The notes under the pieces were generated by a model. That model was not told where the DNA came from. It saw only the letters and a program-made list of their open reading frames with translations, and made no database searches. A DNA stretch of 56,250 bases from Clostridia bacterium (GTDB taxonomy: Bacteria > Bacillota > Clostridia > Oscillospirales > Acutalibacteraceae), in the NCBI GenBank assembly GCA_017466365.1, contig JAFTUG010000014.1:1-56250 (forward strand), given 5' to 3'. Made by a program: the position numbers and the translations under genes. Shown here piece after piece: positions 2,979 to 20,719 of the stretch. Every line of letters begins with the position of its first letter. Within the stretch, counting starts at the first letter, position 1.

Positions 2979-3016
2979 TGCTCTCAAATATAAACATAAC
3001 CGAAAGGATAATTATT

Positions 3017-3634
3017 ATGAAAAAGATTTTATCACTTATTCTTGTTTTTGTGGCTGTTATGACTCTTTTCTGCTCATGCGGAGACAATAAGCCCGGCGAA
3101 TCAAAGCCCATCGAAGCTGCCGAATACACCTATGTTATTCTTGAGGATAACACAGCAAAGATAACAAAATATAACGGCACAACAAATGTTGTTGAGCTTG
3201 ATATCCCTTCCTCTTTTGAAGATGTAACCGTTACGGTTATAGGTGCGGAAGCCTTCGCAGGCGTTCAGACAATCACCGTTGTTAACTTCCCTGACACAAT
3301 CACAAAGATTGAAGAAAGCGCATTCAAGGGCAGCTCAATCAAAAAGGCATTCATGCACCGTTCGTCAATCACGGAAATCGGCGCATATGCATTCTCGGAA
3401 TGCAAAAATCTTGTTCAGACCGATATGCCTGCAACTCTTACAACTCTCGGTGAAAGAGCTTATCACTACTGCGATAATCTGAAGGTTGCAACCTTCAGAG
3501 GCGACACTGCAAATATTGATAAGTTTGCATTCGATGCATGCCCCAAGGTAAAGCTCTATGTTAAGGATACCATGCAGAATGTTATCAGCTTTGCAAACAC
3601 TTATAACCTTGAGCTTGATATAGCCGAAAAATAA
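3017..3634 (+). CDS. BspA-type leucine-rich-repeat lipoprotein
   Basis: About 205 residues. The N-terminus MKKILSLILVFVAVMTLFCSC is a signal peptide with a lipoprotein-like Cys. The body holds LRR_5 (BspA/TpLRR) repeats of the pattern IGAEAFAGVQTITVVNFPDTITKIEESAF, with the paired I-x-x-x-A-F and L-P-x-x-(I/L)-T positions recurring about every 22-23 residues. Such surface proteins usually serve in binding or adhesion; the ligand is unknown. The start at 3017 has AAAGGA eight bases upstream. It follows mltG by 38 bases, so the two are probably co-transcribed. Confidence 0.82.
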   Translation: MKKILSLILVFVAVMTLFCSCGDNKPGESKPIEAAEYTYVILEDNTAKITKYNGTTNVVELDIPSSFEDVTVTVIGAEAFAGVQTITVVNFPDTITKIEESAFKGSSIKKAFMHRSSITEIGAYAFSECKNLVQTDMPATLTTLGERAYHYCDNLKVATFRGDTANIDKFAFDACPKVKLYVKDTMQNVISFANTYNLELDIAEK

Positions 3635-3677
3635 TATTTAAAGCCTTCATCTCATATTATATACCGAGGTGAAGGCT

Positions 3678-5012: not shown

Positions 5013-5027
5013 CTGAAGTGCATGCCG
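4995..5027. terminator. Hairpin between convergent genes
   Basis: Perfect 10-bp arms CGGCATGCAC and GTGCATGCCG with a 13-base loop span the symporter stop codon. There is no real T-run on either side, so it may be a weak bidirectional terminator or an mRNA 3' end stabiliser. Confidence 0.5.
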
Positions 5028-5037
5028 CATATTATTA

Positions 5038-6687: not shown

Positions 6688-6706
6688 TTTAACAACTCTC
6701 CTTGGG

Positions 6707-6886
6707 TCAGTTCTGTTTTCTTACAATTTTATATTCATCATAAGGATTGTAATACGGGCATTCAAATTCGCCGCCCTGCATAAATCTGTAAAGCTCGTCC
6801 TCATCAAGATTAACGAGGCATTCGTAGCACTCATAATCCTCATTGTAGTCATAATGAGCGCAGTTTTCGCAGATTGATACCGCCAT
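6707..6886 (-). CDS. Small conserved Cys-rich acidic protein (DUF6472-like)
   Basis: 59 residues with SICENCAHYDY, YECYECLVNLDEDE and FECPYYNPYDEYKIVRKQ. There are five cysteines, two in CxxC pairs, suggesting a small zinc-binding fold. I recall similar proteins as an uncharacterised family (DUF6472) in Clostridia; the function is unknown. The start is ATG at 6886 with GAGGTG four bases upstream. An in-frame TTG at 6898 would overlap the folK stop codon and is less likely. It lies eight bases after folK. Confidence 0.75.
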   Translation of the reverse strand: MAVSICENCAHYDYNEDYECYECLVNLDEDELYRFMQGGEFECPYYNPYDEYKIVRKQN

Positions 6887-6894
6887 AATACACC

Positions 6895-7395
6895 TCAATA
6901 AATAGGAATGATAATTTCTTTTTCGGTTTTTCTTATTCCGTCGGTACCTATATCGCGAAGATGCGGACCGAAGAACATTCCCGGCGCTCTGCCCGAAGGA
7001 TAAAGCTCAAGAAGCGGCGCCATAACAAAGGCTCTTTCAAGCACTCTCGGGTGAGGAAGAGTAAGCTCAAAGCTTTCTGTCTTAAAGCCGTCATAAAGAA
7101 TGAGGTCAAGGTCAATTATCCTCGGTGCATTCTTTTTTGTTCTCACTCTGCCCATAGCCGCCTCTATTCCGAGGCATTCACCAAGAAGCATTGCAGGCGA
7201 GATATTTGCGTCAACAAGTATAGCCGCATTAAGGTACATATCGTCCTCTTCACAGTCAACGGGCTCTGTTTCATAAACGCTTGATGCCTTGATAATCTTA
7301 ACATCGGGCAGCTTTGCGATTGCCCTTACCGCCGCATTGAGATTTTCTATTCTGTTGCCCAGATTTGAACCGAGAGCAATTACCGCTTCACTCAT
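6895..7395 (-). CDS. folK: Hydroxymethyldihydropteridine diphosphokinase (HPPK)
   Basis: 166 residues, the usual HPPK length. It transfers pyrophosphate from ATP to 6-hydroxymethyl-7,8-dihydropterin in folate synthesis. Seen: IALGSNLGNR at the N-terminus, SSVYETEPV, LNAAI, and the signature RIIDLDLILYDG followed by LPHPRVLERAFVMAPLLEL. Its start overlaps the folB stop by 4 bases, so the two are translationally coupled. Confidence 0.96.
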   Translation of the reverse strand: MSEAVIALGSNLGNRIENLNAAVRAIAKLPDVKIIKASSVYETEPVDCEEDDMYLNAAILVDANISPAMLLGECLGIEAAMGRVRTKKNAPRIIDLDLILYDGFKTESFELTLPHPRVLERAFVMAPLLELYPSGRAPGMFFGPHLRDIGTDGIRKTEKEIIIPIY

Positions 7396-7763
7396 TTTTC
7401 TTCAGCCCTTTCTCTGAATATTTCCACTCCGACATATTCAAAATCTGCTTTGATCGGTGCCTCGGGTTTTTTCAGGAGAATGCGAAGCTTCTGTATTCTG
7501 CCGAAAGCTTCAAACAAACCGTCGGCAACCCTTTGCGCCGCTCTTTCAAGCAAATCATCCTTCTGCACGGTGAATATGCGGACTGTTTCTTTTATAATTT
7601 TTGCGTAGCTTACCGTATCATCAACATTATCGCTCAAGCACGGCTTGCTTATATCAACATAAGCATCTATATCAAAAACAAAATTCTGACCGTTCTCTTT
7701 TTCCTCGGGATTTACCCCGTGATAGGCAAAGATTTTAAGGTTTTTCACTATGATTTTATCCAT
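7392..7763 (-). CDS. folB: Dihydroneopterin aldolase
   Basis: 123 residues, typical for FolB. It cleaves dihydroneopterin to 6-hydroxymethyl-dihydropterin and glycolaldehyde. The motif FAYHGVNPEEKENGQNFVFD carries the conserved Glu and the N-terminal Tyr/His region. VSYAKII and LLERAAQRVAD follow, and KPEAPIKADF holds the catalytic-lysine region near the C-terminus. The gene sits 8 bases after folP and overlaps folK. Confidence 0.95.
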   Translation of the reverse strand: MDKIIVKNLKIFAYHGVNPEEKENGQNFVFDIDAYVDISKPCLSDNVDDTVSYAKIIKETVRIFTVQKDDLLERAAQRVADGLFEAFGRIQKLRILLKKPEAPIKADFEYVGVEIFRERAEEK

Positions 7764-7771
7764 ATTGAGAA

Positions 7772-8599
7772 TTAATCCTTCCTGTATATCGCATCGGCAA
7801 CTCTTGCACCCTGAACACCCGAGAAAACATCGTGAACACGGATAATATCCGCTCCGCCCGCAATTGCCGCAGTATGCGCCGCAACCGTTCCCGAATCACG
7901 CAGGGCAGAATTTTCTTCGCCGCTTGCCGTACCGATAAATCTTTTTCTTGAGCCTGCCGCAAGCAGCGCAACGCCCTTGAATTTAAGCCACTGCAAATCA
8001 CGGAGAATTTCGAGATTATCCTCATAAGTCTTACCGAAGCCGAAGCCGGGGTCAAGACAAAGCTGCTCTTTAGGCAAGCCGAATTTTGCTGCAAGCTCGA
8101 TTGCATCAATAAAGAACTTTCTTAAATCCGCAACAACTCCGTCAGGATATTCCGAAGCCGCCGCAGAGCCGCAGGGATTATGCATAACAATATATCCTGC
8201 TCCGTATTTCGCCGCAAGCTTTGCAGTTTCGGGATTGAAAACACCGCTCACATCGTTGATAATATCCGCTCCCGACTTAAGAGCCGCTTCGGCACAAGCG
8301 GGGTAAAACGTATCAACCGATACTGCCGCCGTAATTTTGCCTCGAACAGCTTCAAGCACGGGAATAAGCCTTTCTTTTTCTTCTGCCGCTCCGAGAATAA
8401 CCGCATCGGGGCGTGTGGAATTTGCTCCGATATCTATAATATCCGCACCCTGCTCCTGCATTTTAAGTGCATGCTCAAGAGCCTTTTCGGGGGTAAAATA
8501 CATTCCGCCGTCAGAAAAGGAATCGGGTGTGTAATTGAGAATTCCCATAACATAGGTTCTTTTTCCCAAGGGGAATTCATGCTTGCCTGCCCTGAACAT
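7772..8599 (-). CDS. folP: Dihydropteroate synthase
   Basis: 275 residues. It condenses p-aminobenzoate with hydroxymethyl-dihydropterin pyrophosphate and is the sulfonamide target. Seen: GILNYTPDSFSDGG near residue 20, DIGANSTRP, SVDTFYPACAEAALKSGADIINDVSG, DPGFGFGKT, and the C-terminal RVHDV. The frame is open upstream to 8725, but I chose ATG 8599: the family motif begins soon after it and GGGAGGC lies just upstream. That ATG shares one base with the folE stop (TAATG), so translation is coupled. Confidence 0.95.
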   Translation of the reverse strand: MFRAGKHEFPLGKRTYVMGILNYTPDSFSDGGMYFTPEKALEHALKMQEQGADIIDIGANSTRPDAVILGAAEEKERLIPVLEAVRGKITAAVSVDTFYPACAEAALKSGADIINDVSGVFNPETAKLAAKYGAGYIVMHNPCGSAAASEYPDGVVADLRKFFIDAIELAAKFGLPKEQLCLDPGFGFGKTYEDNLEILRDLQWLKFKGVALLAAGSRKRFIGTASGEENSALRDSGTVAAHTAAIAGGADIIRVHDVFSGVQGARVADAIYRKD

Positions 8600-9162
8600 T
8601 ATCTGCCTCCCGTCAGAAGCGAAATAGCCTCTGCTCTTGTTTTTGCGTTGCTTCTCATTGTGCCTCGGAGTGCGGAGGTGCGGGTCTGTGCGCCCGAAGC
8701 CCTTGCGCCCCTCATGGTCATGCAAAGATGCTCCGCCTCAATAACAACCGCAACGCCGAGAGGATTGAGATTTTCTTCAAGAAAATCGGCAATCTGCGCC
8801 GTGAGCCTCTCCTGAAGCTGGGGCTTCTTTGCAAAGCAGTCTACTATTCTTGCAAGCTTTGAAAGACCGATAACCTTGCCGTCAGACGGCAGATAAGCTA
8901 TATGCGCCTTGCCCATAAACGGTATGAGATGATGCTCGCACATCGAATAAAGAGGGATATCCCTCACAACAACCATTTCCTCGTTGCCCGTTTCGTTGAA
9001 AAGCTTAAGATGTCTCTCGGGGTTATCCTCAAGACCCGAAAATATCTCCTCATACATTCTGGCAACCCTTGACGGTGTTTCAACAAGACCCTCTCTGTCG
9101 GGGTCCTCACCGATGGCGATAAGAATTTCTCTGACCGCCGCTTCTATTCTTGCTTTATCCAT
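8599..9162 (-). CDS. folE: GTP cyclohydrolase I
   Basis: 187 residues, usual length. It converts GTP to dihydroneopterin triphosphate, the first step of folate synthesis. The zinc and active-site motifs are present: [19 protein letters not shown], and later [10 protein letters not shown] with the second zinc Cys, plus the C-terminal region with RTSALRG. It opens the fol block folE-folP-folB-folK, 20 bases after the transglutaminase-like gene, so the fol genes are probably transcribed together with the envelope genes upstream. Confidence 0.97.
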
Positions 9163-9182
9163 ATTTGCCTGCCGCCTTTACA

Positions 9183-10349
9183 TCATTTTGTTTCTATTAC
9201 AAGTGTCACCAAAAGCTGACCTGAATCTTTATAGTAAGAAAGTGACTCCGTTGAGAAATTCACCTTCGTTTTGCCCTTTGCGCCTTTCAGCACATTATAA
9301 AGCCTGCCCGAATCGATAAGCTCGGAAACAGCTTCATTATAAACCTTTTTGCTGCCGAAGCGAAGCTGAATAACGTTTCCGCCGCTATTAAGCTCATTTG
9401 CAACTATAGAGCTTATCTTCTTTTCATCGCTTCTGTCATAGCTTTCAAAATAACTGCCCGTTTTAATATAATAATTTTCCGCAGTTGCAGTGCAGTTAAA
9501 TTCATAAGAAAAATCGCTGTGGGTTGCGGCAATCATCTCATCGTTGAGATTAAAATAGGCATACATCACCATTTCCTTGCCGCTTTCGCTGACGGGGTCA
9601 TCCCATGTGCAGTCAAGATAATAAAAATCACCGTTAACCTTGACCGCATTCCACATATGAGGCCCTTCAGGGTCCTCGGTATTATCCGAAATGCCGCTCA
9701 CAACCGCACTTTCCATGCCTGCCATATCCAAAAGCAGCTTTGCCGCCTTTGAATAGCCCTCACAAGCCGCCTCACCGTTAACAAGCGCACCGTATGCCGA
9801 GGAATAAACAAATTCTCCCTTTTCAAGGCGGTAAGCACAATTCTCAACTATAAAATCATGTATTTCAAGCTCGGTGCGGAATTCATCCTCCGGGTCGGTA
9901 AGCGAAGCCATAACCTCACTGCAGACCTTTTCAAGCTCCGCCTTCTGATTAAGATAAGTTTCGTAATCAATATAGTATTCAACAGCGCAGTAGGTTGAAA
10001 GACCCTTCGCCGTAAGAGTGCATTTTCTGCCTACAAAGAACAAATCGGGGTTATCCGCAAGCAGCGCAGAAAAAATTCTGTCAAGCTGCTCACCGTCAAT
10101 ATCGGGAATTCTCACCTTCTCCGGCATGGTATAGATATTTGAAAGAATTTCGTTATACGCATGCTTTTCGGTATCGTTAAGCTCCTCATAATAAAACTTA
10201 TAGGGGCTTCCGATATCGGTAAGCTTTTCGGGTGATTTATTCTTCCACGGGTCGGCTGAATCAACAACGTTATTTGCGACATGAACGCCGATAACAAGCG
10301 CAAAAACGCACAATGCCGCTTTGAACAAAAATGAAACAAGCCTTTTCAT
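9183..10349 (-). CDS. Transglutaminase-like protein, membrane-anchored
   Basis: 388 residues with an N-terminal transmembrane helix (about 5-25) and an exported remainder. The transglutaminase-like fold shows a full Cys-His-Asp triad: Cys196 in GEAACEGYSKA, His231 in GPHMWNAVKV, and Asp246 in YYLDCTWDDP. This subgroup usually acts as a protease or transferase at the cell surface; the substrate is unknown. The C-terminal third is unlike known domains. It lies 34 bases after the LCP-like gene and 20 bases before folE in the same transcription direction. Confidence 0.8.
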   Translation of the reverse strand: MKRLVSFLFKAALCVFALVIGVHVANNVVDSADPWKNKSPEKLTDIGSPYKFYYEELNDTEKHAYNEILSNIYTMPEKVRIPDIDGEQLDRIFSALLADNPDLFFVGRKCTLTAKGLSTYCAVEYYIDYETYLNQKAELEKVCSEVMASLTDPEDEFRTELEIHDFIVENCAYRLEKGEFVYSSAYGALVNGEAACEGYSKAAKLLLDMAGMESAVVSGISDNTEDPEGPHMWNAVKVNGDFYYLDCTWDDPVSESGKEMVMYAYFNLNDEMIAATHSDFSYEFNCTATAENYYIKTGSYFESYDRSDEKKISSIVANELNSGGNVIQLRFGSKKVYNEAVSELIDSGRLYNVLKGAKGKTKVNFSTESLSYYKDSGQLLVTLVIETK

Positions 10350-10383
10350 AACGCATTCCTTTCGTCAGGTTTTGCCGTGATAA

Positions 10384-11208
10384 TCATTCAATCTTGCTCG
10401 GCAAATCGACCGTTGAGATTGCCTCAAAGCCGTTTTCACAGAGTATTTTTATGGCCTTTTCAGCCGATGAAAAATCAACAATCGTTATATCGGTATTGAG
10501 TGTGTTTGAAATTTTGGCAAAAACGGAATCCGTTTTGCTCGCTCTTGAGGGCTTGAAAACGCCCTTAAGAATATCGCCCATAACAAGAGCCTGCGAGGCG
10601 TTGCCTCTTGCTCCGAGGGTGTCGAGATAACAAAGATATTTGAAAAGGGAATCGCCTTTAAGAGTCTGTTTTCCCTTTACAAGAATTAAAGTAAGCCCCT
10701 CATTTCTGTATTCAACCTGCTCGGGCACGGTTATTTCGGCACCGCCGAGATAGTTAATCATAGTTCTGAAATCGGTTTCATCGGAGCTTATGTAGCCGTC
10801 AATTTCAGAGCCGAAGGTGGATTCAACCGCCGCAGCAAACTCCGCATCCCCTGTTTTTGAAAGCACGTTTTCGATGCTCGATACCGTGCCGTTATAGTTT
10901 ACAAGCGTTTCGGGAGGCACTGTGCATACCGTTGCCCTTCTTTCGGGCATTTTTATATTGACAAGCCATGCAAAATACAGGTTATCTCTGCTTTCGCTCG
11001 CACACCAAAAGAAATAGGTTTTGTCTGCATAAACCTCGGGAATGCCCGATGATGCCGTTTCGGTGGTCGGCTCGGTTTTTGCCTCGCCGCTTATCGCACG
11101 CTTAACGTCAAAATCATATTTTTTAAGAATTGCAAGGCTTGATATTGCAAGCACCGTAAAAACACAGGCAAAAAACACGATAAAAAACTTTTTGGTTTCT
11201 TCGTTCAT
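10384..11208 (-). CDS. Divergent LCP (LytR-CpsA-Psr)-like protein
   Basis: About 274 residues, one N-terminal transmembrane helix, then an exported domain with the LCP layout: VPPETLVNYNGT where LCP enzymes have S-I-P-R-D-T, MINYLGGAEI for the L-V-D-x-I-G-G-V element, and LVKGKQTLKGDSLFKYLCYLDT for the G-x-x-x-L-D-G-x-x-A-L-x-Y-x-R element. The lipid-pyrophosphate-binding arginines are missing at both positions, so it may bind rather than transfer cell-wall polymers. ATG 11208 has AGGGGG just upstream; ATG 11253 is an alternative with a poorer RBS. Confidence 0.62.
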   Translation of the reverse strand: MNEETKKFFIVFFACVFTVLAISSLAILKKYDFDVKRAISGEAKTEPTTETASSGIPEVYADKTYFFWCASESRDNLYFAWLVNIKMPERRATVCTVPPETLVNYNGTVSSIENVLSKTGDAEFAAAVESTFGSEIDGYISSDETDFRTMINYLGGAEITVPEQVEYRNEGLTLILVKGKQTLKGDSLFKYLCYLDTLGARGNASQALVMGDILKGVFKPSRASKTDSVFAKISNTLNTDITIVDFSSAEKAIKILCENGFEAISTVDLPSKIE

Positions 11209-11278
11209 TTTGCCCCCTCGGGTGCGAAAATCTATATTTTTTCTCTTTTTCATTATTGCTTCACCGCTAAATATTATT

Positions 11279-13132
11279 TTATCGTTTAATTAATATTGCC
11301 GCAGTTTCTTTTTCAAGATAAAGCTCTCTGCCGATAACTGTACCGCCGCAGAGAGACTCATAGCCCTCCTCGGGAAGAATATAGACAATCGAATGCCCGT
11401 TACGGTTTGCAACGGTCATTATTCTCTCGCCTCTGCCGCTTCTTTCATAGGCAACACAGCCGAGAGTTGAAGAAACGGGAACAAACTCGCCGTCTTTGAA
11501 AACGGGATGCTCCGCTCTGATTTTTCCGAGAGTCTTATAGTATTCAATAAGCTCATTATCCTCATTTCCCCACGGATAACAGCCTCGGTTAAACGGGTCC
11601 TCGCCTCCGTCAACACCCGCCTCATCGCCGTAATAGATGCACGGAACACCGGGCAGAGTGAACTGCATTGCAGCCACAAGGCGAAGAAGCCTTTTGCCGA
11701 TATTTTTCTGCTCATCGGTAAGACCGCCGGGATATCTTCCGCTGCAGCCGATTCTGTAGTTTCCGAGAGTGGCAAGACGGTTGAGCACTCGGCAGGTATC
11801 GTGAGTTCCGATATGGTTCATAAGGCAGTCAACCGCAGGCTTCGGATAGTTTTCGCATATCTGTGTGATTTTATCATTGAAGCCGTCTGCATTCGCCGTA
11901 ATTGCAAATTCGATAAGGCAGTCCGCAAAGGGATAATTCATAACCGAATCAAGCTGACCGCCGAGAAGATAAGGTCTTCTTTTGCCGTAGCTTATCTTGT
12001 TTGACGCATCCTCCCAGACCTCACCGAGAATATATGCATCCTCATTTTCAGCCTTTACCGCACTGCGGAGCGCATCAAGAAATTTATCGGGAAGCTCATC
12101 CGCAACATCGAGTCTCCAGCCGCTTGCACCTGCCTTAAGCCACCTGCGGAGAATGCCGTTTTCGCCTGCCATATAGTCAATATAGCCGTCGTTTTCTTCG
12201 TTGATTTCGGGCAGGATATCAACACCCCACCAGCTTTCGTAGTCATCGGGATATTCCCTGAATTTATACCAGCCATAGAAGGGAGACTCCTTGCTGTTAT
12301 ATGCGCCGACAGTATCATATCTTTTTTCTTTGTTAAAATAAATGCTGTCCGAACCCGTGTGACTGAAAACACCGTCAAGGATGATTTTTATTCCTTTTTT
12401 CTCTGCCGCCCTGCAAAGTGACGAAAACTGCTTTTCCGTTCCGAGCAAGGGGTCTGTTTTTTCATAATTTGCAGTATCGTAACGGTGATTTGAGTGTGCC
12501 TCGAAAATCGGATTGAGGTAAATGCAGCCGACTCCGAGCGATTTGATATAATCAAGCTTTTGCTCAATTCCCTTGAAATCACCGCCGAAGAAATCGTATT
12601 TTGTTATTCTTCCCTCACTGTCAGGCTCCCAATTCGGTGTGCCGCCCCAATCGGAGCGCAGAATTCTTTCGGAGGGAATATTTCTCTTTTTCGTTCCCGA
12701 TGACGCAAATCTGTCGGGAAAAATCTGATATATAACCGAACCTTTAATCCACTCGGGAGTTGAGAATTTCTTGGAATAAACGGTAAGCTGGAAGCTTGTG
12801 CCATCGGGCGAAATTCTTCCGGATGAGCCTTCAAAGCGGGTTATTATGCTGCCGCCGTCCCATCTTGCAACCGCAAAATGATACCAGTAAAGACCGCATT
12901 TTTCGGGAACGAAGGTTACCTTCCACCATTCCTCGTTATCTCCCTCCATGCGTTCCCACGTCATGGGATAAATACATCTTTCGCCGCTGTCGCTTGTCAG
13001 AACAAGGCTTGCGCCCGTGCAGCAGTAGCTCCTCGGCATAACTATTCTGAATGTTACCTTTTCGCCCTCGCAAACTGCTCCGAACGGGCTTTTATGATAA
13101 CTTAATCTTGAATTATAGGGTATAAAATCCAT
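11279..13132 (-). CDS. GH13 alpha-glucan hydrolase (neopullulanase/cyclomaltodextrinase type)
   Basis: 617 residues without a signal peptide, so cytoplasmic. An N-terminal beta-sandwich (about 1-125) precedes the (beta/alpha)8 barrel. Conserved regions: DGVFSHTG (253-260), GWRLDVADE with nucleophile Asp342, LGEVWEDA with acid/base Glu371, and IGTHDT with Asp445. The layout fits enzymes that degrade maltodextrins or cyclodextrins taken into the cell. It is 16 bases downstream of the small membrane protein gene. Exact substrate specificity cannot be read. Confidence 0.9.
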   Translation of the reverse strand: MDFIPYNSRLSYHKSPFGAVCEGEKVTFRIVMPRSYCCTGASLVLTSDSGERCIYPMTWERMEGDNEEWWKVTFVPEKCGLYWYHFAVARWDGGSIITRFEGSSGRISPDGTSFQLTVYSKKFSTPEWIKGSVIYQIFPDRFASSGTKKRNIPSERILRSDWGGTPNWEPDSEGRITKYDFFGGDFKGIEQKLDYIKSLGVGCIYLNPIFEAHSNHRYDTANYEKTDPLLGTEKQFSSLCRAAEKKGIKIILDGVFSHTGSDSIYFNKEKRYDTVGAYNSKESPFYGWYKFREYPDDYESWWGVDILPEINEENDGYIDYMAGENGILRRWLKAGASGWRLDVADELPDKFLDALRSAVKAENEDAYILGEVWEDASNKISYGKRRPYLLGGQLDSVMNYPFADCLIEFAITANADGFNDKITQICENYPKPAVDCLMNHIGTHDTCRVLNRLATLGNYRIGCSGRYPGGLTDEQKNIGKRLLRLVAAMQFTLPGVPCIYYGDEAGVDGGEDPFNRGCYPWGNEDNELIEYYKTLGKIRAEHPVFKDGEFVPVSSTLGCVAYERSGRGERIMTVANRNGHSIVYILPEEGYESLCGGTVIGRELYLEKETAAILIKR

Positions 13133-13148
13133 GTGATATGTCCTTTGA

Positions 13149-13382
13149 TTATTTTATCGGAATATACGGCAATTCCGTTATTTTAAGCAGAATATCCGTT
13201 AAAAAATAGCCCGTGCCGATAAGGGCAAGTATTCCCGCCGTAACAAGAATTGCGGAAACAATTCTCTTTGCCCTGACTCTTTCCTCATAAGTCGGACCCG
13301 TACCGAAGCGTGCGGCAAAATCCGTTATACTCTTTCGCTCGGAGGGCTTGAGGGTTTTTTCTATTTTTCCCTTTTCAGGCAT
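13149..13382 (-). CDS. Small single-helix membrane protein, unknown
   Basis: 77 residues: a basic cytoplasmic head with several Lys/Arg, one transmembrane helix (about 42-66) and a short tail. I do not recognise it. It lies 14 bases after the RnfA-like gene, the place where rnfB stands in a classical rnf operon, but it has no cysteines and no ferredoxin motif. It may be an accessory subunit of the Rnf-like complex; that is inference from position only. Confidence 0.65.
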   Translation of the reverse strand: MPEKGKIEKTLKPSERKSITDFAARFGTGPTYEERVRAKRIVSAILVTAGILALIGTGYFLTDILLKITELPYIPIK

Positions 13383-13396
13383 ATTCTTTCCTCCTG

Positions 13397-13990
13397 TCAG
13401 GCAAACAAATTCGTATCGCTGAAGCCTGCAAACGCAAGCGAGAGCATTGCAACATAAAGAAACATGGTCGGTGTTCCCTTAAAAATTGCGGGAATATTTT
13501 CGTTTTCTTCAAGAATGCGCGAACCCATGCTGATAAGCGCCGCCGCAAGAACAAAGGCTATTCCCGCGCCTATGCCCGAACCGATGCTGTCGGCAAAGGA
13601 ATAAGCGGCTGAATGGTTGATATACGGCACGGCAAGCACAAGAGTATTGAGCGCCGCAATGCCGAGAGTTCCGAGAAATTTAGGGGATGCCTTAAAAATG
13701 AAGCGTGCCGCAGCGGCAACAATAATAAACACCGCCGCAAGAATACCGCCGTAAACCGCCGCCCTTACAGCATAGGTAACGTTTGCCATAGCGGCAATTT
13801 TATCGATAAGACTGCAAAGAATGCTCGTTACAACGGAAAAGCCCGATATCATAACCGCAAACTTGCCGAAGGTGCCGGGTTTTGTTGAAACACGGATTGC
13901 CTCACTCATGCCGAGACCCGAGCTGAGCACAAGATTCTGAACAAAAACGGTGTAAAGGGCAGTCATAAGCAAATCGGAGATTATATTCAT
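13397..13990 (-). CDS. RnfA/NqrE-like membrane subunit lacking Fe-S cysteines
   Basis: 197 residues, six predicted helices. It aligns over its whole length with RnfA/RsxA as I recall them: FVQNLVLSSGLGMS matches N-N-F-V-L-x-x-F-L-G-(I/L)-C, and IPAIFKGTPTMFLYVAMLSLAFAGFSD matches the C-terminus. Both cysteines that RnfA contributes to the membrane [2Fe-2S] cluster are replaced, by Ser29 and by Thr116 (ALNTLV for x-T-N-C-A-V). Overlaps the RnfE-like gene by 4 bases. Family placement is secure; electron transfer by the usual route looks impossible. No symbol is given because the function may differ. Confidence 0.85.
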   Translation of the reverse strand: MNIISDLLMTALYTVFVQNLVLSSGLGMSEAIRVSTKPGTFGKFAVMISGFSVVTSILCSLIDKIAAMANVTYAVRAAVYGGILAAVFIIVAAAARFIFKASPKFLGTLGIAALNTLVLAVPYINHSAAYSFADSIGSGIGAGIAFVLAAALISMGSRILEENENIPAIFKGTPTMFLYVAMLSLAFAGFSDTNLFA

Positions 13991-14832
13991 TGCTTATCCC
14001 CCTTTTCATAATAATCTATGCCGATAGACCTGAAGAAATCCTCAATATCTTCGTTTGCGCTGCTTTGAATTTCCTGCGCTGTCTGCGGCTGAGCTTTTTC
14101 GGCGGGTGCAGGCTCTTCCTCTGCAGGCTGCTCTACCCAGAACTCGTCAAAAATCTCAACCTCGGCAATTTCATCCTCAATGATTTCTTCATCCTCAACA
14201 GGAGCTTCTTCCTCTGTCTCCTCCTCGTCGCCATATCTGTAATTGATGAAGGCTTTGAGTCCTGCCGCCATAAATCCGAGAAGAATAAGGCAGCCGAAGG
14301 GCAATGACATTCCCTTGAAAATAACGGGAAGGTCAAGGTTTACTCCCGCAAGTGAGCCGCTGCCGAAAATCTCTCTTACCGTGCCGACGAGAAGCATAAC
14401 CGCCGATGCGCCTATGCTGACAGCTGCCGCATCAAAGAATGCAAGCTTTACGCTGTTTTTAACCGCAAACTGCTCGCAGTGAACAGCCGTTACGGAGTTG
14501 ATTGCAATGAGCGGAATATATATTTTCATACCGAGGCTCATATTGATAAGGGTTTTTGTTTCTATATACCAAAGCACGGGGCAGATAAGTGCAAGTCCGA
14601 TTATAAGATAAAGCGGCACACGCACCCATCTGGGAATTTTCTTGAAAAGAGCGCTTGCGATAACGCAGGTTGCCGTAAGCTCAATGCAAAGAGCGGCGGA
14701 AAGAGCCGCAGAGCCTGCAAGAGTTGTTGATGCGGCAACTACGGGGCAAAGACCTACAAGCTGAATAAGCACGGGGTTAAAAATAAGTGCGCCCTTGACG
14801 AGCATATCTTTAAACGATACATTGTTGCTCAT
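13987..14832 (-). CDS. RnfE/NqrD-like membrane subunit with acidic C-terminal tail
   Basis: 281 residues. Residues 1-200 follow RnfE: NPVLIQLVGLCPVVAAS (Cys29 kept), IPLIAINSVTAVHCEQFA and VGTVREIFGSGSL. The second cluster cysteine of the N-C-x-x-x-x-R-A-E element is Ser113. Residues 201-281 are an added cytoplasmic-looking tail, extremely Glu/Asp-rich, ending with a short amphipathic stretch (NEDIEDFFRSIGIDYYEK). Classical RnfE has no such tail. It overlaps both neighbouring Rnf-like genes by 4 bases, implying coupled translation and a stoichiometric complex. Confidence 0.85.
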   Translation of the reverse strand: MSNNVSFKDMLVKGALIFNPVLIQLVGLCPVVAASTTLAGSAALSAALCIELTATCVIASALFKKIPRWVRVPLYLIIGLALICPVLWYIETKTLINMSLGMKIYIPLIAINSVTAVHCEQFAVKNSVKLAFFDAAAVSIGASAVMLLVGTVREIFGSGSLAGVNLDLPVIFKGMSLPFGCLILLGFMAAGLKAFINYRYGDEEETEEEAPVEDEEIIEDEIAEVEIFDEFWVEQPAEEEPAPAEKAQPQTAQEIQSSANEDIEDFFRSIGIDYYEKGDKQ

Positions 14833-15794
14833 TTTTCGGCAGCCTCCTTTCTTTTGAAAGAAACGGAGGGCAGAGCCCTGAAGGCGGCATCAAGCACGGG
14901 TCGCATACCGTTTGCAAGAAGAATGGCAAAGCACACGGTTTCTTCAAAAACACCCGCACCTCGCATTGCCATGCAAAGAACGCCGCACAATGCGCCGTAA
15001 ATCACTCTGTTAATTCCGTTATGGGGAAGAGTGGCGTGGTCAGTTAAAAGAAATACGCCTGCAAACATAAGCGAGCCTGCGGAAAGCTCGAGAACAATGC
15101 TTGTTAATGCCGAAGCATTTATTCTCGGTGAAACCGCGGCATAAACCGCACATGCAGCAACAAAGCCGATGGTTGCAAGCAAAGCCTTTCTTCTTCTCAC
15201 AAAAAGATATACGCAGCAGGCAAGCATAAGTATGCCGCAGCCCGTACCCATCGGACCCGCAACATTGCCTGCGATAATATCAAAAACATTGGCGGTGCTG
15301 ATATAGACGGACTTTCCCTTTGAGAGCATGCTTCCCAGAGACTCCGCACCGAGAAGCCTTGTTTCGGAATTGACACTGTAATCAAAAATCAAATCCTTAA
15401 AGCATATACTTATGAATGCGAAGCCTGCGGCGGCGGGCACAAACGGTGCATGAAGCGCACCGCCGAAAGGAATTTTGACTGCAAGCACGGCAAATGCGGC
15501 AGCCGTAACAGGCACATAAAGCGGTATGCCTGCAGGAAGCATGAGTGCAATTGCAATGCCGATAAAAATATTGCTGAAATCACGCAGATGAAAGGTTTTC
15601 CCGAGAATTGCTTTTGCTGCGAAATCACAGAAAAGTGCGGTTATAACGCTCACTGCGGCAACGGAGAGAAAACGCGAGCCGTGATACCATGCGGCAACAA
15701 AGCACGGTGCGGCAAGCATAATAAGATAATCACCGAAAATCCGTGAGCCTTTTATTGTATTTTGTTTTGCGGGGTTATTAGCCAAGGCTGTCAC
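14829..15794 (-). CDS. RnfD/NqrB-like membrane subunit lacking the FMN threonine
   Basis: 321 residues, about ten hydrophobic helices. RnfD/NqrB marks: RDFSNIFIGIAIALMLPAG, FGGALHAPFVPAAAGFAFI (for F-G-G-x-x-x-N-x-F-N-P-A-x-x-G-x-A-F) and GNVAGPMGTGCGILML. The S-G-A-T motif whose Thr carries covalent FMN appears as LLGAESLG, with Glu151 at the Thr position. It is the first gene of the minus-strand cluster. rnfC normally precedes and rnfG follows rnfD; neither is here. Its upstream region is shared with the divergent mecA-like gene. Confidence 0.85.
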   Translation of the reverse strand: MTALANNPAKQNTIKGSRIFGDYLIMLAAPCFVAAWYHGSRFLSVAAVSVITALFCDFAAKAILGKTFHLRDFSNIFIGIAIALMLPAGIPLYVPVTAAAFAVLAVKIPFGGALHAPFVPAAAGFAFISICFKDLIFDYSVNSETRLLGAESLGSMLSKGKSVYISTANVFDIIAGNVAGPMGTGCGILMLACCVYLFVRRRKALLATIGFVAACAVYAAVSPRINASALTSIVLELSAGSLMFAGVFLLTDHATLPHNGINRVIYGALCGVLCMAMRGAGVFEETVCFAILLANGMRPVLDAAFRALPSVSFKRKEAAEK

Positions 15795-15818
15795 CTCTGA
15801 AATTCCATTATTTATTCA

Positions 15819-15847
15819 TTGCATACCGCCGAAGAAAATCATATTAT
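15819..15847 (+). promoter_or_regulatory. Promoter of the mecA-like gene
   Basis: TTGCAT (15819-15824), a 17-bp spacer and TATTAT (15842-15847), 34 bases before the start codon with AAGGAGG between. A divergent promoter for the Rnf-like cluster must also lie in this 87-bp gap, but I could not single one out. Confidence 0.65.
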
Positions 15848-15881
15848 TATAGTAAGCACTAATTTTTAAGGAGGCGGCATA

Positions 15882-16451
15882 ATGAAGATTAATTCCCCTG
15901 CCGAGGACAGAATAATTGTTGATTTGAGCGAGCAGGATTTGCTCGGGCTGAATATTACATATGAGGATATGGATTATTCCACAATAGAAACTCGCAGAGT
16001 TATCTGGACCGTGCTTGATGAAGCAGGTAAGGCTCTGGGAAGAGAATTTGACCCGTCACGAAGAATGATAATCGAAGCATCCCCGAAGCGCGACGGAGGC
16101 TGCACTTTAAGCTTTACGATGCTGGACAGCAAAAGAGCCGTGGGGGTACAGAAGCAGTTTCTCAAAAAGCAGGAAAAGAATATCCTGTGCGAATTTGAAA
16201 ATGCGGATATGCTTATGAAGGCTGCCGAATGCCTTGAAAGCCTTAACGCAGTAACAAACAGCAGTCTTTATGAGCTTGGCGGAAAATACCGCCTGCTTTT
16301 AAGCGGCAACGGAGATATTCCGAAAATTAAGCAAAGCTGCTCTGAATTCGGAACATCGGAAAGCTGCTCGGAGCTTGTCTGCTGCTTCACAAAAGAGCAT
16401 TGGAAGGAGCTTGTTGCAGATAATGCAATCGGTAAAATTCTTAACCGATAA
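15882..16451 (+). CDS. mecA: MecA-like ClpC adaptor protein
   Basis: 189 residues. The N-terminal domain (NSPAEDRIIVDLSEQDLLGLNITYEDMDY) matches the MecA substrate-binding domain. The C-terminal part (NSSLYELGGKYRLLL, then a C-S-E-F-G element, and DNAIGKIL at the end) matches the ClpC-binding domain. MecA proteins hand substrates such as ComK to ClpCP and also drive ClpC hexamer assembly. The linker between the two domains is short. Its 3' end overlaps the convergent rpe gene by 11 bases. The exact target in this organism is unknown. Confidence 0.75.
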   Translation: MKINSPAEDRIIVDLSEQDLLGLNITYEDMDYSTIETRRVIWTVLDEAGKALGREFDPSRRMIIEASPKRDGGCTLSFTMLDSKRAVGVQKQFLKKQEKNILCEFENADMLMKAAECLESLNAVTNSSLYELGGKYRLLLSGNGDIPKIKQSCSEFGTSESCSELVCCFTKEHWKELVADNAIGKILNR

Positions 16452-17109
16452 AAGCCTTTTCGGCAAGACCCCTCAAGCTCTCAATTGCCTTTGATGCATC
16501 GGCGGCACCGAAAACCGCACTGCCTGCAACAAAAACATTGGCTCCTGCTGCGGCGGCTGTTTCAACCGTTTTTTCGTTGATACCGCCGTCAACCTGAATA
16601 TCCGTTGAAAGACCTCTGTGCTGTATTTCCGCACGCAGGGTCTTTATTTTATCCATTGTTTCGGGCATAAAAGACTGACCGCCGAAGCCCGGCTCAACCG
16701 TCATAACAAGCACCATATCAAGCTTATCAAGATAAGGAAAAACCTCCTCAACGGGCGTTTTGGGCTTTACGCTTATTCCTGCCTTGCAGCCGCAAGCGAT
16801 AATCTTATCAACCGTTTCTGCGGCAGGCGACGAGCTTTCGATATGGAAAACAATAATATCCGCACCCGATTTTTTGAAATCCTCAATATAATCAAGCGGA
16901 GTATCTATCATAAGATGAACGTCAAAAACAAGGTCTGTTTTGTTTCTTATACTCTTGATAACGGGCGCACCGAAGGTAATATTCGGCACAAATCTGCCGT
17001 CCATAACATCAAGATGCAGATAATCGGCACCGCACTCCTCCATTCTCTTTGCCTCTGCACCGAGAGATGAAAAGTCGCTGGCAAGCACCGACGGAGAAAT
17101 TTTAATCAT
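16441..17109 (-). CDS. rpe: Ribulose-phosphate 3-epimerase
   Basis: 222 residues, normal length. It interconverts ribulose-5-P and xylulose-5-P in the pentose phosphate pathway. Signature elements: SPSVLASDFSSLG, HLDVMDGRFVPNITFG (metal-binding His/Asp), FDVHLMI, VMTVEPGFGGQSF and IQVDGGI. It has its own promoter and overlaps the tail of the convergent mecA-like gene by 11 bases. Confidence 0.97.
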   Translation of the reverse strand: MIKISPSVLASDFSSLGAEAKRMEECGADYLHLDVMDGRFVPNITFGAPVIKSIRNKTDLVFDVHLMIDTPLDYIEDFKKSGADIIVFHIESSSPAAETVDKIIACGCKAGISVKPKTPVEEVFPYLDKLDMVLVMTVEPGFGGQSFMPETMDKIKTLRAEIQHRGLSTDIQVDGGINEKTVETAAAAGANVFVAGSAVFGAADASKAIESLRGLAEKAFIG

Positions 17110-17137
17110 GGTACAATCCTCCTATATTAATCAATAT

Positions 17138-17166
17138 ATTATAGCAGTTTTATTTTATAAGGTCAA
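17138..17166 (-). promoter_or_regulatory. Promoter of rpe
   Basis: On the minus strand: TTGACC (17166-17161), a 17-bp spacer and a perfect TATAAT (17143-17138), about 29 bases before the rpe start codon. Confidence 0.8.
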
Positions 17167-17187
17167 TGATATAAATATTAATTTATT

Positions 17188-17221
17188 ATAAATAAAAGAG
17201 ACAGGGGGATTTCCCTGCCTC
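17188..17221 (-). terminator. Terminator after the foldase-like lipoprotein gene
   Basis: On the minus strand a GAGGCAGGG/CCCCTGTCTC stem-loop (one G-U pair) is followed by TTTTATTTAT. It separates the lipoprotein transcript from the rpe promoter downstream. Confidence 0.8.
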
Positions 17222-17224
17222 AAT

Positions 17225-18166
17225 TTAAAGCATCTTGTTAACTATTCTGTCTGCACCCTTTTCTTCAACCGTCAGATTCTCAATGTAGCTTGAAATCTCC
17301 TGCTCCGATGCACCGGAATAAAGGTCGTTTATGCATGAGGTGCGGTAGTTTGCATAAACCGCCTCTCCTTTATCCTCAAGGCTTTCCTTTACAACGGCAA
17401 AAACGCACTCGTCATATTCCAGAATCTGAACCGTACCGTTTGCTTGTGCATATACCTTATCAAAAAAGCCTGCAGGGTAGCCGTCGGAATCCTTTTTGAG
17501 AATAATGGAATCCGAAAGAGTGTAGCCTGCCGAAGTCACGGCTTCAGAGAATTTTTCGGTATCAACGGCGGTTTTCTGCTCCATTGCCTTGAAAGCTTCA
17601 ATGACTGCATTTTTCTCTGCCTGCGGCATTGCCGAGCCGTCGGCAGAGGTAAAATAAGCGCATACGGTGCGGAAGCTCACATAGTTGGAATAAAAATAAT
17701 CCGTAAGCTCTTTTTCAGCCGCCGCATTTTCCGTTCCTCTGTCATAGGTTGCGGTAAAAATCGCATCCTCATAGGCATCGGCGGTCATAATTTTGGTAAG
17801 AGTCTGCTTTGAAACGCCTATATCTTTATAGTGGTTTTCAAAACGAGTCCAAAAATGATTTACGTTATCGGAAATTTCAACCTTATCCGAAGCCGAAAGC
17901 GTAAGCCCTTTATCCCTGAAGCTTGTGTTTACGGCAACATATTTTTTGCACTCGTCAATTACCGTCTGCTTAAGAAGCTTTTTCTCGGGATTCTCCGCAA
18001 GGCCGTAATCAGAGGGTCGGCTGATAACCTTATCAAGATAATAAGTGAATATCTCGCTGTCAATTTCCGTTCCCGATATAACAAGCGCCGTCTTTTTTTG
18101 AGAGGTGCAGGCGGCAAAGGAGAATAACATTAAAACGGCAAGCAATGCCGATATTATTTTTTTCAT
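17225..18166 (-). CDS. Foldase-like lipoprotein (SurA/PrsA relative)
   Basis: About 313 residues. Signal peptide with lipobox SFAAC, mature Cys at about residue 20. The start of the mature domain (TALVISGTEIDSEIFTYYLDKV) resembles the SurA/PrsA chaperone module. A later region (FFDKVYAQANGTVQILEYDECVFAVV) is PPIase-like in layout but too divergent to call active. It probably assists secreted proteins. The frame is open to 18229, but ATG 18166 gives a proper signal peptide. It resembles the 5038-6687 protein in layout. Confidence 0.65.
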   Translation of the reverse strand: MKKIISALLAVLMLFSFAACTSQKKTALVISGTEIDSEIFTYYLDKVISRPSDYGLAENPEKKLLKQTVIDECKKYVAVNTSFRDKGLTLSASDKVEISDNVNHFWTRFENHYKDIGVSKQTLTKIMTADAYEDAIFTATYDRGTENAAAEKELTDYFYSNYVSFRTVCAYFTSADGSAMPQAEKNAVIEAFKAMEQKTAVDTEKFSEAVTSAGYTLSDSIILKKDSDGYPAGFFDKVYAQANGTVQILEYDECVFAVVKESLEDKGEAVYANYRTSCINDLYSGASEQEISSYIENLTVEEKGADRIVNKML

Positions 18167-18269
18167 AAATATACACCCGTTTCTTTGATGTTGCAGCGAA
18201 ATTATATCACAAAAATTGCTCTTTATCAATGAAATGCAAAAAATACATCAAAAAAATTTAAAAAATCTC

Positions 18270-18298
18270 TTTATTCCTGCAAAATTATGTTGTATAAT
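18270..18298 (+). promoter_or_regulatory. Probable zapA promoter
   Basis: A perfect TATAAT at 18293-18298 with a weak TTTATT 17 bp upstream. The start codon is 36 bases downstream. Confidence 0.55.
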
Positions 18299-18333
18299 TG
18301 TAGTGTATCAAAATAATTACGGGGTGAAAAGTA

Positions 18334-18669
18334 ATGGAAAAAATCAAAATTAAAATTGCCAACGAAGAATATAACATTATAACAGACGATAATCTTGAGT
18401 ATGTTGCACAGCTCGGTGATGAGCTTGATAAAAAGCTCACAGCAATCATCGCCAATAATTCGAGAATTTCCGTCACACAGGCTGCAATTCTTTCGGCGCT
18501 CGAATATGCAGATGCCGCAAAGAAATGCGAAATTACAGCAGAAAACCTCAGAGGTCAGATTCAGGATTATCTTGAAGAATCCGCAAGAGCAAGAACAGAT
18601 GTTGAAATTATGAAGCGTGAAAACGAAAGACTTATGAAGGAAATCGCTTCACTTAAGGCTGCTAAATAA
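18334..18669 (+). CDS. zapA: Cell division protein ZapA
   Basis: 111 residues. ZapA binds FtsZ and cross-links protofilaments at the division ring. The N-terminal beta/alpha part (IKIKIANEEYNIITDDNLEYVAQLGDELDKKL) is typical. A long C-terminal coiled coil (about 60-111) mediates dimerisation. The start follows GGGGTG. It lies one base before the U32 peptidase gene; that pairing is common in Firmicutes. Confidence 0.9.
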   Translation: MEKIKIKIANEEYNIITDDNLEYVAQLGDELDKKLTAIIANNSRISVTQAAILSALEYADAAKKCEITAENLRGQIQDYLEESARARTDVEIMKRENERLMKEIASLKAAK

Positions 18670-18670
18670 A

Positions 18671-20719
18671 ATGGCGGCTGAAATTCTTGCACCTGCCGGC
18701 TCTTTTGATGCCCTTACCGCCGCCGTAAGATGCGGCGCAAATGCGGTTTATCTGGGAACAAAGGCTCTCAACGCACGCAGAAACGCAGCCAATTTCTCCG
18801 ATGAGGAGCTGAAAAAGGCTGTAGAATATTGCCATGAAAGAAACGTTAAGGTATATCTTACTCTTAACACCCTTGTCGGCGATGACGAAAAAGAAACAGC
18901 ATATGAAGCAATCAAGTGCGCCTGCAATGCATCTGTAGACGCACTTATTTTGCAGGATATCGGGCTTGCTTCCATGGTGAGGCAGGTTGCTCCCGATATG
19001 CCCATTCATGCTTCAACACAGATGTCCGTGCAAAGCATTGAGGGCATAAAAATCCTTGAAAAGCTTGGCTTCACAAGAGCTGTTCTGCCCCGTGAACTTT
19101 CCGAAAAGGAAATAAGAGAGATTTCATCGCAGACCGATATGGAGCTTGAATGCTTTGTTCACGGTGCGCTTTGTATGTGCGTTTCGGGTCAATGCCTTAT
19201 GAGCGCAATGCTCGGCGGCAGAAGCGGCAACAGAGGTCTCTGCGCCCAGCCGTGCAGGCTTCCCTTTGGAGTAAACGGCAAGGGCGGCAGCAACTTGAGC
19301 CTTAAGGATTTATCGCTTGTCGAGGAGCTTTCAAGGCTTGAAAAAGCAGGTGTTTGTTCGTTTAAAATCGAAGGCAGAATGAAGCGCCCCGAATATGTTG
19401 CAGCGGCGGTAACAGCCTGCAAAAACAGCATAAACAACACTCCCGATGATAAAATTAACAGCTCATTGCATGCGGTTTTTTCGCGTTCGGGCTTCACAAA
19501 AGGCTACTTTGAAGGCAGACTCGGCAAAGAGATGTTCGGAACAAGGCGCAAAGAGGATGTTGAAAACGCCGCATACGTGCTTTCGGGTCTGCAAAGACTT
19601 TACGATAACGAAAATCCGCTTATCCCCGTTGATTTTTCGCTTGTTTTCAAATCAGATAAGCCCATAAAGCTTACAGTTTCTGCCCTTGGCAAAACCGCCG
19701 TTGCGTCGTGTGAAAAAACGCCCGAAAAAGCAATAAACAAGCCTTTGAGCCGTGATGATTTGAGCGACAGACTTTCAAAATGCGGCGGCACACAGTTTTA
19801 CGCAAACAATATTCATATAGATTTTGAAGAAGGTCTCATCGTTTCCGCAGGTGCACTCAATGCACTCCGCAGAGATGCTCTAAACGCACTCGCAAATGAA
19901 CTTTCGGAAAGAAAAGATATTTCTGTTAATGAATATAAGTGCGGTTTTTCACGTCACGAGGCAAAGCCCTTCTCGCTCCACGCAAGATTTTTCCGTGAAG
20001 AGCAGATTCCGGAAAGTTTATGCGGAATTTCAAGGGTAATTATACCTATTGAATCAAGTCCCGAAACGGTAAAAAGCCTTATTTCTCAAGGAATTGAGGT
20101 CGCAGCGGAAATACCTGCCGCCGTATTCGGAAGCTCGGAAAAATATATAAAAAAACTCACCGAATTGAAAGAAAACGGTCTTTCTCTTGCATGGGTCTGC
20201 ACTCTCGACGGAGTCGGCATTGCCCAAAAAAACGGGCTTGATTTTTGTTCAGGCTTCGGAATGAATATATATAATAGTATATCTTTAAGTGAAATAGAAA
20301 AGCTTGGTGCGAAAGACTGCCTTGTTTCCTGCGAAGCACAGCTTTACGAAATTTCACGTCTCGGAACTGACCTTCCGAGAGGTGCAATGCTCTACGGCAG
20401 AATTCCCCTGATGATGACCCGCAACTGTCCCGTTAAAAACAAGCTGACATGCGGTGAATGTCAATCAAAAAGCTTCCTTGTTGACCGAATGGGCATAGAA
20501 TTCCCCGTTATCTGCAAAAACGGCGCAAGCTTTATTCTCAACTCCCGCCCGTTATGGATTGCAGATAAGAAAAACGAGCTGAAAAGCCTTGATTACGGTC
20601 TGATTTATTTCACAAACGAAAGCAAAGAAGAATGCAAAAAAATCATTTCCGAGGTAAAAAGCGGCTCAAATCCCCCGGAAGAATTCACCAGAGGAATGTA
20701 TTTCAAGGGAGTTTTATAA
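18671..20719 (+). CDS. Peptidase family U32 protein (YhbU/RlhA-like)
   Basis: 682 residues. The N-terminal half is the U32 barrel: EILAPAGSFDALTAAVRCGANAVYLG, VHGALCMCVSGQCLMS and GGRSGNRGLCAQPCRLPF, with the cysteine pattern that may hold an Fe-S cluster. The C-terminal half carries the DUF3656-type extension and ends with further cysteines (RNCPVKNKLTCGECQ). Members act in RNA hydroxylation (RlhA) or are annotated as collagenases; the RNA role is better supported. It is coupled to zapA. Confidence 0.85.
   Translation: MAAEILAPAGSFDALTAAVRCGANAVYLGTKALNARRNAANFSDEELKKAVEYCHERNVKVYLTLNTLVGDDEKETAYEAIKCACNASVDALILQDIGLASMVRQVAPDMPIHASTQMSVQSIEGIKILEKLGFTRAVLPRELSEKEIREISSQTDMELECFVHGALCMCVSGQCLMSAMLGGRSGNRGLCAQPCRLPFGVNGKGGSNLSLKDLSLVEELSRLEKAGVCSFKIEGRMKRPEYVAAAVTACKNSINNTPDDKINSSLHAVFSRSGFTKGYFEGRLGKEMFGTRRKEDVENAAYVLSGLQRLYDNENPLIPVDFSLVFKSDKPIKLTVSALGKTAVASCEKTPEKAINKPLSRDDLSDRLSKCGGTQFYANNIHIDFEEGLIVSAGALNALRRDALNALANELSERKDISVNEYKCGFSRHEAKPFSLHARFFREEQIPESLCGISRVIIPIESSPETVKSLISQGIEVAAEIPAAVFGSSEKYIKKLTELKENGLSLAWVCTLDGVGIAQKNGLDFCSGFGMNIYNSISLSEIEKLGAKDCLVSCEAQLYEISRLGTDLPRGAMLYGRIPLMMTRNCPVKNKLTCGECQSKSFLVDRMGIEFPVICKNGASFILNSRPLWIADKKNELKSLDYGLIYFTNESKEECKKIISEVKSGSNPPEEFTRGMYFKGVL

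Follow-up and report, generated by a model that had tools for sequence, protein, structure and literature searches.

A rocker switch under the control of the [2Fe-2S] cluster has been proposed to carry Na+ through RnfA and RnfE in the Rnf complex (RnfCDGEAB) of A. woodii (PMC11889175). The RnfE Arg67Ala and RnfA Thr110Gly mutants did not grow; among further RnfE mutants, Glu115Gln grew poorly, Asn107Ala was impaired or partial, and Glu115Ala was normal (PMC11889175). Both the Na+ path in Rnf and Nqr, via RnfA/E or via RnfD, and its redox control are debated (PMC12174285, PMC11889175). Na+-NQR is reported to derive from a duplicated rnf operon that lost rnfB (PMC4014512); it retained the membrane cofactors and acquired NqrF (PMC12174285). 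The NQR/RNF-like systems comprise only part of an Rnf or Nqr set and include a membrane domain resembling RnfD/NqrB; they are flavinylated, with a NAD domain of the NqrF type fused to them (PMC8238504).

The locus described here contains genes homologous to rnfD, rnfE and rnfA, arranged in the same order as in the rnf operon. It lies in a 56,250-nucleotide stretch of DNA from a Clostridia bacterium of the family Acutalibacteraceae (the whole stretch is called the window). The open reading frames were called mechanically, and some starts are therefore extended. The relevant features are:

11279..13132, minus strand: GH13 (alpha-amylase family) gene, after the anchor gene (PF00128, 1e-51)
13149..13382, minus strand: 77-residue protein with a single transmembrane segment, putative anchor of a DUF4015 companion without the outer domain (BLAST to the L092 protein)
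13397..13990, minus strand: RnfA-like protein (trio A), 197 residues (PF02508, Rnf-Nqr, 3.4e-21)
13987..14832, minus strand: RnfE-like protein (trio E), 281 residues (PF02508, Rnf-Nqr, 2.6e-26)
14829..15794, minus strand: RnfD-like protein (trio D), 321 residues, GTG start (PF03116, NQR2_RnfD_RnfE, 3.5e-52)
15882..16451, plus strand: mecA-like gene, divergent neighbour of trio D (PF05389, 3.1e-15)
16441..17109, minus strand: rpe, upstream neighbour of the trio (gene cluster c1, in 18 of 21 loci)

The D and E genes, and likewise E and A, overlap by 4 nt, and a gap of 14 nt separates A from the gene for the 77-residue protein. A sequence-only reading had called the three overlapping genes RnfD-, RnfE- and RnfA-like, and Pfam scores well over the gathering scores place them in PF03116 (D, 178.1 bits vs. 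27.7) and PF02508 (E and A, 93.1 and 76.5 bits vs. 23.8). Trio D is the PF03116 domain alone, unlike the fused proteins of the NQR/RNF-like systems. The NCBIfam cut-offs for rnfA, rnfD and rnfE were not reached (58.2, 123.8 and 87.6 bits vs. 229.3, 207.05 and 213.4), and the scores of the trio with the nqrB, nqrD and nqrE models were far under cut-off; with its cofactor residues absent as well, the trio does not constitute a Na+-NQR gene set with membrane cofactors. The nearest solved relatives by sequence are the 7zc6 subunits, RnfA and RnfE for the family profiles (3.1e-31 for the A profile against 7zc6_A) and RnfD for trio D of the window. Retention of the membrane fold, also claimed from the sequence, holds for the predicted models of D and E; the E model has 9eri_E as its best match, and the D fold resembles, next after Rnf, the ammonia/urea channel family. 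The rpe assignment comes from a Ribul_P_3_epim Pfam match for one member of cluster c1. An Rfam scan of window positions 9000-19000 returned nothing at gathering scores.

When the window proteins were aligned with the canonical copies of the same genome, trio A was found to have Ser29 in place of Cys25 and Thr116 in place of Cys113, trio E to keep Cys25 as Cys29 and to have Ser113 in place of Cys108, and trio D to have Glu151 in place of the FMN-bearing Thr. Every one of these residues had been named in the sequence-only reading, and alignments with solved structures give the same readings. As for the riboflavin residues of RnfD (A. woodii numbering), Asn123 is lost (Val119) and Asp249 is kept (Asp252). 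Only D, E and A of the six-subunit Rnf set are present in the window cluster, from which rnfB, rnfC and rnfG are missing. With one of the four cluster cysteines, no FMN threonine, one riboflavin residue lost and no RnfB, RnfG or RnfC at the locus, the Rnf electron route cannot run in the window trio, and electron transfer of this kind is excluded on sequence grounds. This separates the trio from Rnf, and also from Na+-NQR, since the lineage of the trio lost the membrane cofactors that Nqr retained.

The absence of rnfB, rnfC and rnfG stands for the window cluster but not for the genome, in which contig C12 holds a complete rnfC-D-G-E-A-B operon (L005, 4890-9945). The D-E-A trio is thus a paralogue. 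In this genome, which is 79.6% complete, PF02508 has four matches, two on C12 and two in the window, and RnfC_N and FMN_bind have one match each, both in the C12 operon. The RnfE encoded in that operon (L005, 7712-8536) carries a cysteine-rich C-terminal tail.

A search of 295 genomes of the order with trio A yielded 30 loci: the window, nine canonical operons and 20 further D-E-A trios, which were refetched with wider flanks (L036-L055). Neither rnfB nor rnfG was found next to any of the 20 trios in the fetched stretches, where a missing neighbour may reflect a contig end. The window and these 20 trios form a set of 21 diverse loci that was not selected by pattern; Cys25 of A is kept in none of them, Cys113 of A in 7, Cys25 of E in 3 and Cys108 of E in none, so that 11 loci have no cluster cysteine and 10 have one. 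The S-G/T-A-T stretch is absent at the FMN place from all 20 further trios; L038 has an aligned Thr there in a different context, EGTSLAS. At another stripped locus (L223), two degenerate RnfC-like genes (8529-9656 and 11141-12274) flank rpe and mecA near the trio.

A second collection consisted of the best 80 of 107 relatives, the closest of which shares 90% identity in trio A. Their titles name Clostridia, Clostridiales, Oscillospiraceae, Ruminococcaceae, Clostridiaceae, Bacillota, Ruminococcus sp., Ca. Fimenecus and Ca. Limimonas (the last placed by NCBI in the Acutalibacteraceae), and the sources are mostly metagenome-assembled genomes, many of them from the guts of ruminants and other animals. 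D was found in 76 and E in 78 of the fetched stretches of these best 80, and B, C or G beside A in none, with the same proviso about contig ends. In both sets together, which include two repeats (L116 = L036, L128 = L037), 97 loci have four readable positions; 24 of them have no cluster cysteine and 73 have one. Thr occupies the Cys113 site in 92 of 101 rows, a count biased by a search pattern that had Thr at this site. Of 97 D rows, 20 align a Thr to the FMN position, within stretches of GTS or STS type; S-[GT]-A-T occurs at this position in none of the rows, and six show a loose [ST]-x-A-[ST] at other places in the loop. As a control, 37 of the 39 canonical loci of the order with readable A and E have all four cysteines, the exceptions being L196 (T,T/C,G) and L218 (G,C/C,G), and every canonical locus in which D is readable (37 of 37) has the FMN threonine and both riboflavin residues. 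The L218 locus (G018, 5387-10850) is a six-gene rnf operon with two of the four membrane cysteines and with the RnfB/RnfC Fe-S motifs kept.

The substitutions are therefore conserved as a clade (Cys25 of A and Cys108 of E lost in 20/20 further trios, at most one cysteine in 97/97 loci), and isolated mutations were rejected because the same losses recur across related trios. The proposed loss of electron transfer extends, as judged by the cofactor residues, to the Rnf electron path throughout the clade. Taken together, the alignments indicate that a second, well-conserved Rnf membrane core, which has lost its electron-carrying sites, occurs in gut Clostridia. A search of 342 genomes of the class gave nine matches at 182-240 bits, all from the window's order and seven of them already contained in the query alignment; outside this order the top score was 125 bits, and very divergent copies such as L183 cannot be distinguished by score.

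The trio genes are under purifying selection. Compared with 12 relatives, omega is 0.12-0.26 for D, 0.13-0.24 for E and 0.09-0.18 for A, near the values of rpe, mecA and the GH13 gene, with dS above 1 for most pairs. In the least saturated pair (L058), dS is 0.70, 0.79 and 0.68 and omega 0.12, 0.13 and 0.09 for D, E and A, respectively. These values led us to reject a pseudogene. At some positions the clade has fixed new residues; for instance, Gly30 is replaced by Arg in 90 of 101 A rows and Ala134 by Cys in 80 of 99 E rows (L005 numbering).

In many trios the A gene is followed by a gene for a DUF4015 (PF13200) protein with an N-terminal membrane segment. PF13200 was detected in 12 of 40 relatives, in several of them adjoining rnf genes, and in none of the 25 in the window's genus; the window genome has no match. 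We fetched 52 loci (L181-L232), on part of which the DUF4015 model was trained. In 13 of them (L181, L182, L191, L194, L197-L201, L203, L229-L231), spread over several families of the order, a membrane-anchored DUF4015 protein follows canonical rnf genes, usually as the seventh gene after rnfCDGEAB (L203 is cut by the contig end). DUF4015 also follows a cysteine-poor six-gene set (L196), a fragment (L185) and six stripped sets (L183, L184, L205, L221-L223). Five of the 52 loci have DUF4015 but no rnf genes in the fetched sequence, and the rest are without DUF4015, some of these being contig ends. At L192 (G008, 7452-10416) the DUF4015 protein adjoins mecA and rpe, in a genome that is 100% complete and has no PF02508 match.

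A tree of D, E and A (62 rows, with an arbitrarily chosen canonical row as root), with supports from a quick search and several long branches, recovers the stripped rows as monophyletic (26 rows, SH-aLRT 99) and nests them in a 49-row set (SH-aLRT 99), in which 12 of the 23 canonical members carry DUF4015. None of the 12-row clade that contains the resident Rnf of the window genome carries it, and it is likewise absent from the canonical operons in 16 genomes that bear a trio (0/16, 13 of them with more than 3 kb of downstream room). The stripped rows are nested likewise in a tree of A only, rooted on a row from another family of the class. Forcing them together with the resident 12-row clade made the tree 47.6 log units worse (AU p 0.022, for groups named after the tree was seen), so a recent duplication of the resident Rnf is disfavoured by the tree position. 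The stripped clade is stepwise at its base, from L196 through L183 and L205 to the others: L196 (G093, 2374-7426 and beyond) has six genes plus DUF4015, one of four cluster cysteines, and RnfB/RnfC Fe-S motifs that are kept; L183 has C, D, E and A plus DUF4015; and L205 has the order rpe, mecA, degenerate rnfC, D, E, A, DUF4015. The earlier proposal of a complex repurposed from Rnf fits this tree, with the stripped clade placed inside canonical operons, and the trio seems to descend from the Rnf membrane core of a DUF4015-linked Rnf lineage. One type of Rnf would have had a task linked to DUF4015; its redox function would then have been lost, where another Rnf was present or where Rnf was given up, and the remainder kept.

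For an active DUF4015 enzyme we presume an Asp in the LLDxVxFP stretch, and this residue varies in canonical-linked and stripped-linked proteins alike. DUF4015 is fused to YkyA domains, which elsewhere are fused to polysaccharide deacetylase domains (PMC12700454), a fusion pattern that gives a hint of envelope glycans. The GH13 gene was also considered as the basis of a glycan theme and set aside as not core, because only 41 of 80 related loci carry it (best 80 of 107 relatives) and other genes occupy its place in the remainder; it is a lineage-specific neighbour outside the trio core. In the same loci, rpe is found beside the trio in 67/80 and mecA in 54/80.

The 77-residue protein encoded after A in the window has no Pfam or NCBIfam match, DUF4015 included. 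Its residues 27-74 align with residues 35-82 of the 378-residue DUF4015 protein of L092 (44% identity, E 8.5e-13, BLAST against a small set), and on this alignment the protein is the predicted N-terminal anchor of a DUF4015 companion whose outer domain is gone. An RnfG-like topology, with one helix and an outer arm, is an idea that we mention in passing. The sequence-only reading had raised the question of whether a small membrane protein always follows the trio. A homologue of the anchor follows A in 72 of the 80 loci (best 80 of 107; 19 of DUF4015 length), with a model trained on the same loci, and an anchor or DUF4015 is present in 13 of the 21 diverse loci, but neither was found in eight of the 20 further trios (L039-L044, L046, L047), so that the companion is frequent and not universal. 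Trio E of the window ends in an acidic C-terminal tail of 74 residues (13990-14211) with a predicted terminal helix. Tails of at least 40 residues are found in 79 of 99 rows, 73 of the 79 being net acidic, and the tail is short in the other 20 (L039-L055, L103, L113, L132). A short hydrophobic-acidic helix motif at the end of the tail recurs, as noted by eye, and the helix is also in the window model. The acidic tail looks like a docking tail.

Of the residues implicated in the ion path of A. woodii, the RnfE gate is kept in the window, with Arg71, Asn112 and Glu120 corresponding to Arg67, Asn107 and Glu115, and RnfA Thr110 is replaced by Ala113. Across the 21 diverse loci, Arg67 is kept in 20, Asn107 in 17 and Glu115 in only 10; the larger, window-weighted set has Arg67 in 96/97, Asn107 in 86/97 and Glu115 in 87/98. 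On the RnfA side, Thr110 is found in none of the 21 diverse loci, Pro107 in 4 and Tyr105 in 4, and neither Thr110 nor Glu88 in any of the 101 larger-set rows. Both Arg67 and Glu115 are lost in L205 and L223. The RnfE gate is thus kept in the window's own lineage and partly in the wider clade. Retention of the gate residues may reflect a role in folding.

The sequence-only reading had suggested an ion channel, a transporter or an assembly scaffold. Our leading reading, to which we assign a probability of about 0.38, is that the trio is a non-redox, ion-gated membrane transporter or transducer between cytosol and envelope. The A and E proteins would still pair in an inverted fashion and alternate between inward and outward forms; without a redox drive, the switch would be set by the ion gradient via the RnfE-type Arg67-Glu115-Asn107 gate, and also by the partners, namely the anchor protein and the acidic tail. 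In relatives, the outer part of the partner is a glycosyl-hydrolase-like and possibly glycan-binding domain. This reading draws support from the identity of the trio and its clade-wide cofactor losses, the purifying selection, the nesting among DUF4015-bearing operons, the retention of Arg67 and Asn107, the likeness of D to ammonia/urea channels and the conservation of the anchor or DUF4015. It is weakened by the retention of Glu115 in only 10/21 loci, by the tolerance of Glu115Ala in A. woodii (PMC11889175), by the largely lost RnfA path, by the losses in L205 and L223, and by the fact that the best 80 of 107 relatives were partly found by a pattern with Thr at the Cys113 site. The closest rival is a membrane scaffold that moves nothing and would hold the anchor or DUF4015 protein, with the acidic tail as binding site for a partner in the cytosol. 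The companion conserved in 72/80 of those relatives, the long, mostly acidic tails with their recurring terminal helix motif, the lost RnfA-side residues and the absence of Glu115 from 11 of the 21 diverse loci all suit a scaffold, but Arg67 (20/21) and Asn107 (17/21) are kept, a fifth of the rows (20/99) have a short tail, and eight of 20 loci have no detected companion to be held. We regard the scaffold as a serious contender, at clearly less than even odds, and the ion-gated reading is only slightly ahead of it because the wider clade keeps only part of the RnfE gate.

Could the trio serve the resident canonical Rnf instead, assisting or regulating it or supplying hybrid subunits, with B, C and G borrowed from it? 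A canonical-scoring E/A pair does occur in 19 of the 20 trio genomes. However, two genomes, G199 (99% complete) and G006 (98%), hold the stripped pair only, which also speaks for the ion-gated reading, and the trio belongs to a different Rnf lineage from the resident one; we find this explanation improbable. In G093 (87% complete) the L196 intermediate is the only Rnf-Nqr pair. It appears slightly more improbable still that the trio is a redox complex relying on different cofactors or donors, such as riboflavin and the [4Fe-4S] clusters of a degenerate RnfC present in relatives. Such an RnfC is encoded ahead of 10 of the 20 trios (L039-L048) and keeps both CxxCxxCxxxC ([4Fe-4S]) motif sets in 10/10 cases, and both riboflavin residues are present in 8/10 loci that have it vs. 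3/11 that do not. Nevertheless, this association follows the tree, the GGAGFP and NAAECEP stretches of canonical RnfC are found in 0/10, the FMN domain scored 25 bits in one of two scanned proteins and was undetected in the other (vs. 161 for canonical RnfC), and the window itself has no degenerate RnfC and has lost Asn123. Finally, a decaying, functionless leftover would agree with the stepwise loss of genes and cofactors, but it is very hard to reconcile with the low omega values of the L058 pair, with frames that stay open and overlapping in relatives at about 20-40% identity, and with the residues newly fixed in the clade.

Among the matches listed in our literature search (titles and abstract openings), cofactor-free D-E-A trios and a DUF4015 gene in rnf operons are undescribed. 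It is tempting to speculate, at odds that we consider rather poor, that after Rnf and Nqr the trio represents a third machine to arise from the rnf operon: the core of a redox Na+ pump would have become a cofactor-free, ion-gated device with an envelope-glycan arm, kept because one Rnf type had a DUF4015-linked task that outlived the handover or abandonment of redox function. A natural cofactor-less clade with intermediates separates the structural and ion-path residues of the Rnf membrane core from its redox residues, and it points to an unsuspected task of one type of Rnf, tied to the DUF4015 protein.
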